Below, in pieces: positions 3,912 to 41,956 of a DNA stretch of 64,000 nucleotides; the first letter of the stretch is position 1; every line of letters begins with the position of its first letter. The translations under genes and the position numbers were made by a program. The notes beneath the pieces were generated by a model, which saw only the letters and a program-made list of their open reading frames with translations, searched no databases and was not told the origin of the DNA. This DNA is from Comamonas granuli NBRC 101663 (GTDB taxonomy: Bacteria; Pseudomonadota; Gammaproteobacteria; Burkholderiales; Burkholderiaceae_C). The stretch covers positions 62,001 to 126,000 of the forward strand of contig NZ_BBJX01000002.1 in the NCBI RefSeq assembly GCF_000739995.1. The letters are read 5' to 3'.

Positions 3912-6653
<2,742 letters not shown>

Positions 6654-37463: not shown

Positions 37464-37503
37464 GGTTGGCAGGCCCTGCAAATCAAGGGTTTACCCGTGT
37501 CAT

Positions 37504-37541
37504 GGTATGGTTTACCCTAAAACCATTTGGTTTTATTTACC
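37504..37541. promoter_or_regulatory. Two NorR enhancer sites between norB and norR
   Basis: GGTATGGTTTACC (37504-37516) and GGTTTTATTTACC (37529-37541) both fit GGT-N7-ACC exactly and start 25 bp apart. A degenerate third half-site (TCA-N7-ACC) is at 37483-37495. They also overlap the start region of norR, so autoregulation is possible. Confidence 0.8.
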
Positions 37542-37552
37542 TGAGTCGGGTC

Positions 37553-39142
37553 ATGAACACCCTTTTTGACGCTCCCTGGCTGGTGGACCTGGCCACCCAA
37601 ATGCCCCCCCAGCAGCGCCTGCAACGCCTCATCGGCGGCCTGCGCGCGCATTTCTGCTGCGGCGCCGTGGCGCTGCTGCGGCTGGAGGAAGGGCATCTGC
37701 GCCCCATGGCGGTCGATGGCCTGGTCAGCGAGGCGCTCGGGCGGCGCTTTGCCGTGCACCAGCACCCGCGGCTGGCGGCCATCCTGGCGCGCGCCGGCGA
37801 GATCACCTGCTTTGACCACGACAGCAGCCTGCCCGACCCCTACGACGGCCTGCTCGACACCCTGGTGGGCGAGCCGCTGCCCGTGCACGACTGCATGGGC
37901 GTGGCGGTGCAGGTAGACGGACGGCCCTGGGGCGTGCTCACGCTGGACGCGCTGCAGACCGGCACCTTCGACGCCCGCGCCCGCGCCGAACTGGCGCGCT
38001 GCACCGTGCACGTGCAGGCGGCCGTGCGCGTGACGCGGCTGGAGCAGCAGGTGCAGGCGCTCAGCCGCGCCTCCAGCCAGCTCCCGGGCGAATCCGCCGA
38101 CGAGCAGGACCTGCGCACCGCGCTGGACGACAGCGAGATCCTGGGCCAGAGCGAGGCCCTGCTGCGCCTGCAGCACGAGGTCAAGGTGGTCGCGGGCTCG
38201 GACCTGCCCGTGCTGCTGCTGGGCGAGACGGGCGTGGGCAAGGAGCTGTTCGCGCGCTTCCTGCACCGCCACTCGCCGCGCCGCCACAAGCCGCTGGTGC
38301 ACGTGAACTGCGCGGCGCTGCCCGAGTCGCTGGCCGAGAGCGAGCTCTTCGGCCACCGCCGCGGCGCCTTCTCCGGTGCGGTGACCGACCGGCCCGGGCG
38401 CTTCGAGGCGGCCGAGGGCGGCACGCTGTTCCTCGACGAAGTGGGCGAGCTGCCCCTGAGCGTGCAGGCCAAGCTGCTGCGCACGCTGCAGAACGGCGAG
38501 ATCCAGCGCCTGGGCGCCGACGAGCCGCGCCGCGTGAACGTGCGCGTGGTGGCCGCCACCAACCGCAGCCTGCGCGACCACGTGCGCGACGGGAGCTTTC
38601 GCGCCGACCTGTACCACCGCCTTTCGGTCTACCCCGTGCCCATCCCGCCGCTGCGCGAGCGCGGCGACGACGTGCTGCTGCTGGCCGGGCGCTTTCTGGA
38701 GCTCAACCGCGCCCGCCTGGGCCTGCGCAGCCTGCGCCTGTCGGCCGACGCGCAGGCCGCGCTGCGCCGCTACCACTGGCCAGGCAATATCCGCGAACTG
38801 GAGCACGTGATCAGCCGCGCCGCCCTCAAGGCCCTGAGCCGGGGCGCGCGCCAGCACCACATCGTCACGCTCGAAGCCGCGCTGCTCGACCTCGATGCCC
38901 TGCAGGCCGGCGCCGCGCCGGCCCCCGCGCCCGCAGCGCCCGCAGCGCCCGCCCTGGCGCCAGACGGCGCCGGCACCGCCGCGCCCCGGACGCTGCGCGA
39001 TGCGCTCGACGCCTGCCAGCGCCACAGCATCCAGGCGGCGCTGGAGCGCCACGCCGGCCACTGGAGCCGCGCCGCACGCGAGCTCGGCATCGACCCGAGC
39101 AACCTGCACAAGCTCGCCCGGCGCCTGGGGCTCAAGGCCTGA
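37553..39142 (+). CDS. norR: NO-responsive sigma-54 activator NorR
   Basis: 529 residues. N-terminal GAF domain (residues about 20-165) that senses NO through iron; AAA+ domain with Walker A LLGETGVGKELFARFLH, Walker B GGTLFLDEVGELP and the sigma-54 contact loop, which reads GAFSGA instead of the usual GAFTGA; a Pro/Ala-rich linker; and a C-terminal Fis-type helix-turn-helix (GHWSRAARELGIDPSNLHKLARR). ATG at 37553 was chosen; an in-frame start farther upstream would span the NorR sites. Divergent from its target norB. Confidence 0.95.
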   Translation: MNTLFDAPWLVDLATQMPPQQRLQRLIGGLRAHFCCGAVALLRLEEGHLRPMAVDGLVSEALGRRFAVHQHPRLAAILARAGEITCFDHDSSLPDPYDGLLDTLVGEPLPVHDCMGVAVQVDGRPWGVLTLDALQTGTFDARARAELARCTVHVQAAVRVTRLEQQVQALSRASSQLPGESADEQDLRTALDDSEILGQSEALLRLQHEVKVVAGSDLPVLLLGETGVGKELFARFLHRHSPRRHKPLVHVNCAALPESLAESELFGHRRGAFSGAVTDRPGRFEAAEGGTLFLDEVGELPLSVQAKLLRTLQNGEIQRLGADEPRRVNVRVVAATNRSLRDHVRDGSFRADLYHRLSVYPVPIPPLRERGDDVLLLAGRFLELNRARLGLRSLRLSADAQAALRRYHWPGNIRELEHVISRAALKALSRGARQHHIVTLEAALLDLDALQAGAAPAPAPAAPAAPALAPDGAGTAAPRTLRDALDACQRHSIQAALERHAGHWSRAARELGIDPSNLHKLARRLGLKA

Positions 39143-39243: not shown

Positions 39244-40527
39244 ATGATCGACCAGCTCCACCTGCGCCGCATCAAGGCCTGGCACGACAGCGGGCCCGTG
39301 CAGCTGGCGCCGGTGACCATGCTGCTGGGCAGCAACTCCTCGGGCAAGTCCACGCTGCTGCAAAGCCTGCTGCTGCTGCGCCAGACGGCCCTGGCGCCCG
39401 ACCGCAGCGTGCACCTGAACCTGGGCACGGACGAGGGGCGCGACGCGGTGCACATCGGCCGTTTTGCCACCCTGCTGGCGCAGGGCCTGCCGGCCCCGCA
39501 GCACTGCAGCATCGCGCTGCAGTGGCAGCGGCCCGAGGGCGAGCGCGGCGCGCGCGGGCGCTACGCCTGCACCTGGGGCGCCACCGCCCAAGGCGCGCCG
39601 GTGGTGCAAACCCTGGAGCTGGCCAGCGTGGCGCGCAGCTTTCGGCTCGTGCGGCGCGCGCACGGCGCCTACGCCCTGTATGTGGACGGCGCCACCCGCC
39701 CGCGCGGCGTGGGCCCCGAGTTGGCGCCCGAACGCGCCATCGCCCTGCCGCCGCAGGCGCTGGCGCTGCTGGGCGCCGACGCGCAGCACCTGCAGGACCT
39801 GAGCCTGGCGCTGTACCGCACGCTCGAATCCCTCATCCACCTCGGGCCGCTGCGCCGCCTGCCCGCGCGCGAGCTCGCCTGGAGCGGCGCCGCCCCGGGC
39901 GAACTGGGGCCGGACGGCCAGCACGCCGGCGCCGCGCTGCTCGCCAGCGCCCTGGTGCGCTCGCCGCAGCAGGGCAGCGTGCTGCGCAGTGTGGCGCACT
40001 GGCTGGAGCGCATGGGCATGGCCGAGCAGCTCAGCGTGCAACCCGTGGGCCGCACGGGCCGCTACGAACTGCGCGTGCACCACGACGGCGTGGCCGCCAA
40101 CCTGCGCGACGTGGGCGTGGGCGTGGCCCAGGTGCTGCCCGTGCTGGCCGTGGCCTACAGCGCCGCGCCGGGCAGCACCGTGCTGGTGGAAGAGCCCGAG
40201 CTGCACCTGCACCCCCTGGCCCAGGCCGTGCTCGCCGAAATGTTTGCCGAGGTCAGCCAGCAGCGCCAGGTGCAGTTCGTGGTGGAGACGCACTCCGAGC
40301 ACCTGTTCCGCCGCATGCAGACCCTGATCGCGCGGCGCCAGGTGAGCACCGCGCAGTGCCGCATGCTGTTCGTCGAGCGGCGCGGCGCCCAGGCCGTGCT
40401 CACGCCGCTGGACGTGGACGCGTTCGGCGCCGTGCGCAACTGGCCGCCGCGCTTTTTTGGCGACGCCATGGGCGAGGCGCGCGAGCAGGCCCGGGCGCGC
40501 TTGCAACGCCTGCGCGAAGAAGCATGA
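39244..40527 (+). CDS. AAA ATPase with DUF3696 (SMC/OLD-like), first gene of an ATPase-PIN-RNA ligase set
   Basis: 427 residues. Walker A LLGSNSSGKSTLLQSL (residues 29-37), a variable insertion of about 250 residues, Walker B STVLVEEPELHLHP (about 312-325) and a histidine switch VVETHSEHLFRR; the C-terminus VDAFGAVRNWPPRFFGDAMGE is the DUF3696 signature. Related ATPases of the AAA15/21 group act as sensors or gates for nucleases in several phage defence systems. AGAGGA precedes the ATG. The next two + strand genes encode a PIN-like nuclease and an RNA-ligase-family protein; 177 bp with a repeat separate it from them. Confidence 0.85.
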   Translation: MIDQLHLRRIKAWHDSGPVQLAPVTMLLGSNSSGKSTLLQSLLLLRQTALAPDRSVHLNLGTDEGRDAVHIGRFATLLAQGLPAPQHCSIALQWQRPEGERGARGRYACTWGATAQGAPVVQTLELASVARSFRLVRRAHGAYALYVDGATRPRGVGPELAPERAIALPPQALALLGADAQHLQDLSLALYRTLESLIHLGPLRRLPARELAWSGAAPGELGPDGQHAGAALLASALVRSPQQGSVLRSVAHWLERMGMAEQLSVQPVGRTGRYELRVHHDGVAANLRDVGVGVAQVLPVLAVAYSAAPGSTVLVEEPELHLHPLAQAVLAEMFAEVSQQRQVQFVVETHSEHLFRRMQTLIARRQVSTAQCRMLFVERRGAQAVLTPLDVDAFGAVRNWPPRFFGDAMGEAREQARARLQRLREEA

Positions 40528-40529
40528 CA

Positions 40530-40665
40530 ACCCCCTGGGGCGCTTCGCGCCTTCCCCCTTCTCGGGCAGCGCTGCGCGCTGCGCAAGGGGGACGCCACCA
40601 GCGCCTGAACCTTGAGGTACTGGCGGCCCTTGCGCGGTGGCCGCTGGCCTGGCCGCGCCATCTGC
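40530..40665. repeat. Comamonadaceae-type intergenic repeat with CCCCCTT/AAGGGGG hairpin
   Basis: TTCCCCCTT (40552-40560) and AAGGGGGA (40585-40592) enclose a second hairpin of alternating GC (GCGCTGCGCGCTGCGC), followed by GGCGGCCCTTGCGCGG and repeated TGGCC motifs. I recognise this layout as a common intergenic repeat in this family; only one copy is in the window. Confidence 0.55.
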
Positions 40666-40704
40666 ATGCAACACAGACACCCTGCACCGAAAGGAACCAT
40701 TGAG

Positions 40705-41250
40705 ATGCAGGCCCGCCTGGTGGATACCAATGTGCTCATCGTCGCCAGCGCGGCCGACGCGGGCTCGCCCTTTCACGCCGAGGCCACACCCGTGGAGGAA
40801 GTCGCCCTGCGCGCGCAGGTGCTGGACTGGCTCGAAGCCTTCGAGGCCGACCCCGCGCGCCACGCCGTGCTTGACGTGGACTGGCTGGTGTGCGGCGAAT
40901 ACCGCCACAAGCTCACCGAGCAGGACTACGGCTGGCTGGCCATGATGCACAAGATGGACCGTGGCGAGGTCGTGTGGGTGGACGTGCTGCTCGACAGGAA
41001 CGGCAACGCCGTGCTGCCGCCCGAGCTCGCCGCGGCAGTGACCGACCTGGCCGACCGCAAGATGGTGGCCGCCGCGCTGGCGGCGCTCGACGCCGGCCAC
41101 CCCTGCCGGCTCGTCAACGCCAGCGACACCGACTGGATCGACTGCGAAAGCGCGCTGCGCGCCGTGGGCCTGGAAGTCGAGCACCTGCTGCCCGCATGGC
41201 TGCTCGCGCGCTGGCGCCGCAAACACCCGCCCGAACGGCGCGCAAAATAG
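40705..41250 (+). CDS. PIN-like nuclease domain protein
   Basis: 181 residues. The four acidic positions of a PIN active site can be placed: Asp7 in LVDTNVLIV, Glu65 in VCGEYRHKL, Asp117 in DLADRKMVAAAL and Asp141/143 in NASDTDW. PIN domains are metal-dependent ribonucleases (VapC toxins cut tRNA or rRNA) that leave 5'-phosphate and 3'-hydroxyl ends. No VapB-type antitoxin adjoins it. AAGGA lies nine bases before the ATG at 40705. The RNA-ligase gene starts seven bases after its stop, so the two are certainly co-transcribed. Confidence 0.78.
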   Translation: MQARLVDTNVLIVASAADAGSPFHAEATPVEEVALRAQVLDWLEAFEADPARHAVLDVDWLVCGEYRHKLTEQDYGWLAMMHKMDRGEVVWVDVLLDRNGNAVLPPELAAAVTDLADRKMVAAALAALDAGHPCRLVNASDTDWIDCESALRAVGLEVEHLLPAWLLARWRRKHPPERRAK

Positions 41251-41257
41251 CCTGTCT

Positions 41258-41956
41258 ATGCCCGAATTCTTCCGCTTCCCCCACACCCCCCACATCGCCT
41301 GGCTGGCCACGGGCGCGCCGCGCGACGACAAGGTGCTCTCCGCCGCCGAGGCCGACGAGCTCCTCAGCGGCCCCGTGGTGCTCGAGGAAAAGCTCGACGG
41401 CGCCAACCTGGGCTTTTCCGTCTCGCCCGACGGTGTGCTGCGCGCCCAGAACCGCGGCCAGTACCTGCCCCAGCCCTTCCACGGCCAGTTCGCCCGCCTG
41501 GGCCCGTGGCTCGCCGCGCACGAGGACAAGCTGTTCGATGGCCTGGGCGCGCACCTGGTGGCGTTTGGCGAATGGTGCGCGGCGCGCCACTCGCTGGACT
41601 ACGCCGCCCTGCCCGACTGGTGGCTGCTGTTCGACGTGTACGACCGCCAGGAGCAGCGCTTCTGGAGCACCGCACGGCGCAACGCCTGGGCGGCCGAACG
41701 GGGCCTGGTCACGGTGCCGCGCCTGCACGCGGGCGAGGCCACGCTGGACCAGTTGCGCGACTGGGTGCACAGCCGCCACAGCCAGTTCCGCCAGGGCCCG
41801 CTGGAGGGCATCGTCATCCGCCGCGAGAACGCCGATTGGCTGCAGGCCCGCGCCAAGCTGGTGCGTGCGGATTTCACGCAGACCATCGAGGCGCACTGGC
41901 GCACGCGCGCGCTGGAGTGGAACCGGGTGTTATTGCCCCAGAAGGCTGAGGAGTAA
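41258..41956 (+). CDS. RNA-ligase-family (Rnl2-like) nucleotidyltransferase
   Basis: 232 residues. All covalent nucleotidyltransferase motifs are visible: motif I EEKLDGANLGFSV with the AMP-accepting Lys45, FGEWCAARHS (motif III), LEGIVIRRE (motif IV, near residue 187) and RAKLVRADF (motif V, near 200). The small size without an extra C-terminal domain fits the RNA-ligase family, which joins 3'-OH to 5'-phosphate RNA ends using ATP. It begins seven bases after the PIN gene. Its last 27 bp overlap the convergent livF gene. Confidence 0.85.
   Translation: MPEFFRFPHTPHIAWLATGAPRDDKVLSAAEADELLSGPVVLEEKLDGANLGFSVSPDGVLRAQNRGQYLPQPFHGQFARLGPWLAAHEDKLFDGLGAHLVAFGEWCAARHSLDYAALPDWWLLFDVYDRQEQRFWSTARRNAWAAERGLVTVPRLHAGEATLDQLRDWVHSRHSQFRQGPLEGIVIRRENADWLQARAKLVRADFTQTIEAHWRTRALEWNRVLLPQKAEE

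Follow-up and report, generated by a model that had tools for sequence, protein, structure and literature searches.

A conserved operon of an ATPase, a PIN-like nuclease and an RNA ligase in Comamonas granuli and its relatives, a candidate module of reversible phage defence

The genes of an ATPase, a PIN-like protein and a small RNA ligase, which stand in a row in a 64,000-nucleotide stretch of Comamonas granuli NBRC 101663 (contig NZ_BBJX01000002.1, positions 62,001 to 126,000; hereafter the window), form a conserved operon. By analogy with PrrC, we give an even chance to the reading that this trio is a mobile anti-phage module, in which an ATPase-gated RNase would serve as second-line immunity and the module's own ligase would reverse its cuts. 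An earlier note, made from the letters of the window, had recognized three + strand genes of these kinds, and this was borne out by the open reading frames (ORFs), the Pfam matches and the alignments.

Conservation of the Three-Gene Operon

Ligase loci in named genomes were collected with a ligase profile, and the best 80 of 295 relatives were kept. The PIN gene lies directly upstream of the ligase gene in 79 of these 80 loci and the ATPase gene is present too in 64, in the same gene order; the others comprise 11 loci with PIN and ligase without ATPase, three cut by contig ends, one with a broken PIN frame and no ATPase, and one ligase without PIN. The ATPase frame is in pieces at L141, which is counted among the 64, and at L050. 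Two loci with a broken PIN frame (L115 and L122) were excluded from the trees and the spacing analysis, and contig ends truncate L064, L105, L127 and L049. A phylum-level search based on the PIN protein, and therefore unbiased toward the ligase, gave 15 loci from 398 genomes, with 11 trios (the window included) and four ATPase-PIN loci without ligase. The linkage of the ATPase to the PIN-ligase pair, which the earlier note had seen in a single genome, is thus found in 64 of the 80 named-genome loci and 11 of the 15 phylum loci.

Within the genus of the window, 11 of 26 genomes carry the PIN gene, and these are all 11 positives among 149 relatives. They hold 12 loci, each with the ATPase upstream and the ligase downstream of PIN, four of them being partly cut by contig ends; one of the genomes examined (G021) has the same three genes though its PIN protein is just 34% identical. 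The order-level ligase search was positive in 19 of 399 genomes, and all nine non-window loci with a complete close ligase and flanks are trios (the ATPase of L050 lying in two frames), while the class-level search was positive in 8 of 369 genomes, four of them with trios. A scan of viral contigs for the ATPase gave 17 loci, made up of three trios (one contig was also found by another search), one ATPase with PIN, and 13 with an ATPase relative only. Most of the hosts are Beta- or Gammaproteobacteria; beyond these there are two plasmids, one alphaproteobacterial and one actinomycetotal, two Thermodesulfobacteriota and one Chlorobiota record. Ligase matches without partners comprise pieces of close ligases in L061 and L193 and more distant ligases, those of L055-L060 and L062 at 28-35% identity, and those of L194 and L195.

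The genes are tightly packed in most relatives. An overlap between ATPase and PIN is seen in 46 of the 64 trios, measuring exactly 4 bp in 32 of them, and for PIN and ligase 31 of 77 loci show an overlap and 45 more a distance of ≤25 bp. A chance neighbourhood of three genes was rejected on the conserved order and overlap. The gaps in the window are 177 bp between ATPase and PIN, and 7 bp between PIN and ligase; the PIN start codon, ATG at 40705, sits within a longer frame of the ORF list that starts at 40612. The 177-bp gap carries a dispersed repeat with 41 matches in its own genome, its own copy counted, and the repeat family is matched mostly over 75-140 bp. The earlier note took this repeat for a weak point of a three-gene operon. 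A gap of 165-177 bp occurs in only three of the 64 named-genome trios, with the two genes overlapping or ≤40 bp apart in the remaining 61. Because ATPase and PIN overlap or closely adjoin in nearly all relatives, the repeat looks like a late insertion and no sign of unrelated genes. The features are listed in Table 1.

Table 1. Features of the module and its upstream neighbour in the window.
Feature	Coordinates	Strand	Size and basis
DUF3696-tailed ABC-type ATPase gene (AAA_21/AAA_15), HEC-03B-like	39244..40527	+	427 aa; ORF list, Pfam, PADLOC
Spacer with dispersed genomic repeat, ATPase-PIN interval in this lineage	40528..40704	+	Genome repeat search
PIN-like nuclease gene, HEC-03A-like; acidic D7, E65, D117, D141	40705..41250	+	181 aa; PADLOC, alignment, model
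RNA ligase gene, nucleotidyltransferase domain only (K45 in KLDG, E105, E183, K200)	41258..41956	+	232 aa; PF09414
NorR-type sigma-54 regulator gene, neighbour outside the module	37466..39142	+	Pfam Sigma54_activat, GAF, HTH_8

The Three Proteins

The window ATPase matches AAA_21 (3e-23), AAA_15 (5e-19) and DUF3696 (6e-7) in Pfam. The earlier note described its Walker motifs as intact, and G29, G34, K35, S36 and E316 are identical in all 87 aligned ATPases. In PADLOC, it matches HEC-03B at 4e-76, as do all 14 aligned ATPases compared, and an AriA-like AAA ATPase at 2.5e-22; the PDB sequence search gave a weak match to an OLD-family ATPase. No Pfam match to HEPN was found in the chain, which ends in DUF3696.

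The middle protein is, with good but not full confidence, a PIN-like nuclease, as judged from the fold order of its model and its conserved acidic residues. The model is confident (predicted local distance difference test score, pLDDT, 95.7) and its order of strands and helices, judged by eye, is that of the alternating alpha/beta fold of PIN type. Among 102 aligned proteins, the four acidic positions pointed out by the earlier note proved conserved (D7 in 101, E65 in 102, D117 in 102, and position 141 as D in 97 and E in 5), and the DTN motif is likewise kept. Against PADLOC HEC-03A, the window protein matches at 2.4e-7 over profile positions 83-153 of 159 only, and all 14 aligned PIN-like proteins, the window's included, match this model. 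Family profiles gave weaker results. PIN_3 was matched by 6 of 53 scanned family members (best expectation value, E, 0.011), a profile comparison with three neighbouring PIN proteins was weak (E 2e-4, probability 47, over 32 N-terminal columns only), NCBIfam added little, and the PDB sequence search returned chance matches. The top two viral Foldseek matches of the model, a DUF1308 protein (probability 0.95, E 0.017) and a PIN-named protein (0.94, E 0.037), are also weak.

The third protein belongs to the RNA ligase family, as the earlier note had it, matching PF09414 over the entire family length (6.5e-33; 114.7 bits against a cut-off of 27). K45, D47 and G48 of the KxDG nucleophile, R66, E105, E183 and K200 are invariant in 102 of 102 aligned proteins; we take R66, E105, E183 and K200 to lie in the sealing motifs Ia, III, IV and V. 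At E ≤ 0.001, Foldseek matched the AlphaFold model (pLDDT 90.0) to 42 structures, every one a ligase and 38 bearing the name RNA or tRNA ligase; RNA editing ligase 1 is the best match, and Naegleria, archaeal and T4 ligases are also among the fold neighbours. Naegleria and archaeal ligases are weak matches in the PDB sequence search, and TIGR01209 is marginal (E 0.22). No PADLOC model matches the ligase at E ≤ 1. The model ends after a single tail helix (204-213) with no second domain in its 232 aa, and the short tail has conserved H213, W214 and N222. Such a single-domain ligase may require a partner for holding RNA.

Genomic Context and Mobility

The context of the trio points to virus defence. 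A helicase/Eco57I-type methylase gene ≤6 kb upstream or an HNH gene ≤3 kb downstream was found at 24 of 79 loci, and both at 14, sometimes 3 bp from the ATPase gene and in overlap with the ligase gene. Neighbour proteins, 110 in number, matched 154 PADLOC families, which are redundant, compared with two families among 102 control proteins; the matches include HNH (six proteins), helicase models (five) and type I methyltransferase (three), and NorR itself matched three RtcR models. Of 134 genes picked, 110 entered the neighbour sample, which draws on 40 of the 64 loci; genes were called by our own script, and 12 near-duplicate loci, 12 over the residue limit, the shortest genes, and proteins >1100 aa, including the large methylase, were left out. 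The 102 control proteins are from eight genomes, in which 19 of 20 stretches yielded genes.

The trio also occurs on mobile elements. In one IMG/VR contig it has an AbiJ-type gene on one side and phage portal and terminase genes on the other, and on conjugative Aeromonas plasmids it is found near AbiEii-type and Hok-type genes and a GASH gene; a conjugative Rhodococcus plasmid carries it as well. In the window, the module starts 101 bp past the end of the NorR-type gene, on the same strand. By alignment, the site behind norR is variable, because homology to the trio-less genomes G003, G015 and G023 stops at the norR end, at 39136-39138; homology to G006 stops at 39142. No tRNA gene that might be a common substrate or insertion site was found in the window, and only 7 of 60 loci have a tRNA or tmRNA gene, in a search that covered these two kinds of RNA gene.

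Evolution of the Parts

Over 83 complete loci, identities correlated at 0.88 for PIN and ATPase, 0.19 for ligase and PIN, and 0.21 for ligase and ATPase, and since the loci were selected by ligase likeness, which narrowed the ligase range in these values, trees were used in addition. Mapped on the ligase tree, in which 39 of the 95 inner branches are weak, PIN type shows 20 changes (the mean after shuffling is 37); on the PIN tree, ATPase type shows four, the minimum possible for five types. By these comparisons, PIN and ATPase types are matched, while the ligase, which is more conserved, is not coupled to either. The median ratio of nonsynonymous to synonymous substitution rates (dN/dS) near the window is 0.36 for the ATPase, 0.24 for PIN and 0.13 for the ligase (45 pairs, 10 loci).

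PIN has also been exchanged beside a conserved ligase, either by itself or together with the ATPase. Nineteen pairs of loci have ligases ≥80% identical with PIN proteins <50% identical. The clearest swap is seen between Thauera phenylacetica and Pigmentiphaga (L132/L134), with 92% identity in the ATPase, 94% in the ligase and 29% in PIN; their DNA homology continues until 64 bp short of the end of the ATPase gene, is absent over the PIN gene and is back 11 bp inside the ligase gene. Because the exchanged piece takes in the last ATPase residues, this suggests that the ATPase tail may contact PIN.

Loci Lacking One Part

PIN and ligase occur without the ATPase in two clades, one of eight loci (L085, L096, L101, L114, L116, L124, L131 and L143) and one of three (L098, L100 and L111), and the PIN residues are intact in all 11. 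No such ATPase was found elsewhere in the seven ATPase-less genomes searched, the completeness of which is not stated. These pairs may be domesticated RNA-processing pairs.

Among the four loci of the phylum-level search that lack the ligase, three come from genomes without a PF09414 match (one of them 88% complete) and one from a genome with a different ligase elsewhere. On an Acinetobacter soli plasmid (L251, 3639-6296), methylase, DUF3696 ATPase, PIN and HNH genes occur without an intervening ligase, the ATPase being annotated there as two ORFs. At L140 (5975-8741), a ligase without PIN lies between methylase and HNH genes; ahead of it stand an AAA_15 ATPase of another kind and a 190-aa protein that has no Pfam match, and the gene after this ligase resembles DUF3800 by eye.

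Because the ATPase is absent from two clades, the ligase is missing from several pairs and PIN is kept in both, PIN would be the hub of the module, with the ATPase suiting a defence role and the ligase pairing with PIN chemistry.

Comparison with Known Systems

HEC-03, a PADLOC candidate whose name we take to stand for a candidate embedded in Hma, is among the closest known systems. The likeness lies in the adjacent HEC-03A and HEC-03B proteins, judged by profile matches and not by PADLOC's own thresholds and system rule; the difference is the module's ligase. One literature mention of HEC-03 was found, in a survey of the rumen. Among the matches listed for the literature covered, which left out most subscription papers and all preprints, we found no account of the trio, so an earlier mention is possible. 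The earlier note knew of no named system with this composition, and this stands for the trio with its ligase and fails for the ATPase-PIN pair, which is already listed as the HEC-03 candidate; the new part is the ligase built into a putative ATPase-gated RNase defence.

PrrC-EcoprrI and RloC resemble the module in having an ABC-type ATPase that gates an RNase. PrrC is described as an ABC ATPase-gated tRNA nuclease within a restriction-modification operon, a second line of defence that is released once the phage blocks restriction and is reversed by phage Pnk and Rnl1 (PMC3710099, PMC2610378), with end healing by Pnk required before Rnl1 can seal (PMC2610378). In the module, however, ATPase and nuclease are separate proteins, the nuclease is PIN-like instead of HEPN, and the ligase is encoded by the module itself, whereas for PrrC it is supplied by the phage; as to linkage with restriction-modification genes, 24 of 79 relatives have methylase/helicase or HNH genes nearby, and the window does not. 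Membership in PrrC/RloC was rejected, with HEPN absent from the ATPase chain and the nuclease separate. PARIS (AriA-AriB) likewise has an AriA-like AAA ATPase beside a separate nuclease, but the module's nuclease is PIN-like and not Toprim, and a ligase is present; a Toprim match in Pfam was found in none of the three proteins, and PARIS membership was rejected too.

HARP with Rnl3 is similar in that a PIN-superfamily RNase is found near an RNA ligase, the two co-occurring and often co-localized (PMC12153264). The module differs by forming a same-strand operon, usually with an ATPase, on mobile elements, and HARP membership was rejected, as no HARP family match was obtained for the window PIN protein at E ≤ 1 (Pfam) or for 53 family members at E ≤ 0.05. 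As for VapBC, no small DNA-binding antitoxin gene adjoins PIN, which is flanked by the 427-aa ATPase and the ligase. RNA editing ligase 1, T4 Rnl2 and the Naegleria RNA ligase are the closest folds and profile matches of the ligase and share the KxDG nucleophile, but the module's ligase has no separate C-terminal or oligonucleotide-binding (OB) domain; T4 Rnl2 has a separate C-terminal domain.

Proposed Function and Alternatives

Immune systems that cut RNA are commonly interpreted as causing suicide or dormancy, and RNA ligases as a countermeasure of the phage. For the trio, we consider a reversible form of immunity, in which an ATPase-gated, swappable PIN cassette cuts RNA and halts the infected cell and the ligase of the same operon reseals the RNA, to have somewhat less than an even chance. 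The ATPase would sense infection, and hold and activate its cognate PIN RNase, a step proposed because the evolution of PIN and ATPase is matched. Infection would be the trigger, possibly once it has overwhelmed an adjacent helicase/methylase/HNH system. PIN would then cut host RNA, most likely tRNA, and stop translation; the substrate, the cleavage and the resealing we infer, and tRNA is proposed by analogy. PIN enzymes leave 5'-phosphate/3'-OH ends, and because such ends need no healing, a ligase without kinase fits; the nucleotidyltransferase-only ligase could reseal PIN cuts without kinase or phosphatase, which would lessen damage from leakage or let surviving cells recover. If true, reversal becomes part of immunity, and the host owns a repair step best known as phage counter-defence. 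A conserved host operon with both cutter and sealer would make it possible to ask directly whether abortive defence is reversible, and the exchange of PIN beside a better conserved ligase offers a natural experiment on phage targets in such systems and on RNase target range.

Several observations weigh against this reading. The window PIN-like protein has no PIN family match in Pfam, so family profile support is weak, and its model gave no Foldseek match in the PDB at E ≤ 0.001. The ATPase-less PIN-ligase pairs sit, by eye, at conserved chromosomal positions, more like housekeeping genes. The ligase is missing from the four loci among the 15 sampled, and from ATPase-PIN loci on Acinetobacter plasmids and on one viral contig; because such loci exist, the ligase is no strict antidote, and a strict toxin-antitoxin pair with a PIN that needs the ligase is ruled out. 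The neighbours of the trio in the window are metabolic, without methylase/HNH linkage. The module-side methylase is of Eco57I/N6 type and HmaB is described as m5C (PMC8565338), so this neighbour may not be Hma. A tRNA or tmRNA gene is absent from 53 of the 60 loci, and tRNA is a substrate by analogy only. The ligase-based selection of the loci behind the correlations counts on the same side. The earlier note had proposed a regulated RNA-cleaving module with its own repair enzyme; the defence context near the loci agrees with this, while the absence of the ATPase from two clades and of the ligase from 4 of 15 loci does not, so that the note's reading is supported in part. Neither of the two outcomes it had named as refuting, an ATPase gene unlinked from the PIN-ligase pair elsewhere or variable PIN active-site residues, was borne out.

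Part of this evidence would suit PIN and ligase as a pair for RNA maturation or circularization, as proposed for HARP with Rnl3 (PMC12153264), the ATPase being a regulator gained on mobile elements. Two clades keep the pair without ATPase, with intact PIN residues and conserved-looking positions, and HARP and Rnl3 offer a precedent in their co-occurrence and frequent co-localization. A fixed housekeeping RNA, however, is ill matched by the patchy presence (11 of 149 relatives), by the plasmid, phage and methylase/HNH contexts and by the exchange of PIN, and no common tRNA gene stands beside the loci in a search that covered tRNA and tmRNA, so we regard this pair as unlikely, if the most credible of the alternatives. 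The ligase might instead join the attack by adenylating, circularizing or mis-joining PIN-cut RNA and so blocking phage repair enzymes. It consists of the nucleotidyltransferase domain only, and the N-domain of T4 Rnl2 adenylates better than it seals. For a thermophilic Rnl3, strong adenylation and weak ligation are reported (PMC12153264), and ATPase-PIN pairs without ligase would be permitted. Yet R66, E105, E183 and K200, assigned above to sealing motifs, do not vary among the 102 aligned proteins, and PIN with ligase but without ATPase would be an ungated double toxin, which leaves this reading improbable and next in rank.

Stabilization of mobile elements in toxin-antitoxin fashion, with PIN as toxin, the ligase as a repair-type antidote, the ATPase as sensor and no direct anti-phage role, ranks behind it and appears quite improbable. 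It would agree with the AbiEii and Hok genes found close to the module on conjugative plasmids and with the frequent role of PIN domains as toxins, and the chemistry would be the same as in defence; the 14 of 79 loci with methylase/helicase genes on one side and an HNH gene on the other, and the several pairs without ligase, speak against it. By far the least probable is general RNA repair, in which other ribotoxins make the cuts that the ligase mends and PIN merely trims ends. An Rnl protein does work in the bacterial Pnkp1-Rnl-Hen1 repair complex (PMC4411300), but kinase, phosphatase and Hen1 families are not among the first 25 of the 148 neighbour families, and PIN is type-matched to the ATPase, unlike a passive trimmer.

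Neighbouring and Phage-Borne Relatives

The trio is preceded by a co-oriented NorR-type regulator gene in the window and likewise in seven relatives, at a distance of about 1.9 kb in one of them (L040). A longer RNA ligase family of about 280 aa was met at L055-L060 and L154, and in L154 (5965-7983) it adjoins a plasmid AAA ATPase gene as a separate pair. Phage relatives of the ATPase, with 23-35% identity across about half of its length, were found in 12 Klebsiella phage records, P2-EC5, one Vibrio phage and one Pseudomonas phage. An 80-kb viral contig (L146), with no PIN match and no Terminase_6N match, carries at 4998-5663 a ligase of 47-49% identity, which might be a phage copy of the defence ligase used as counter-defence, only a lead at this stage.

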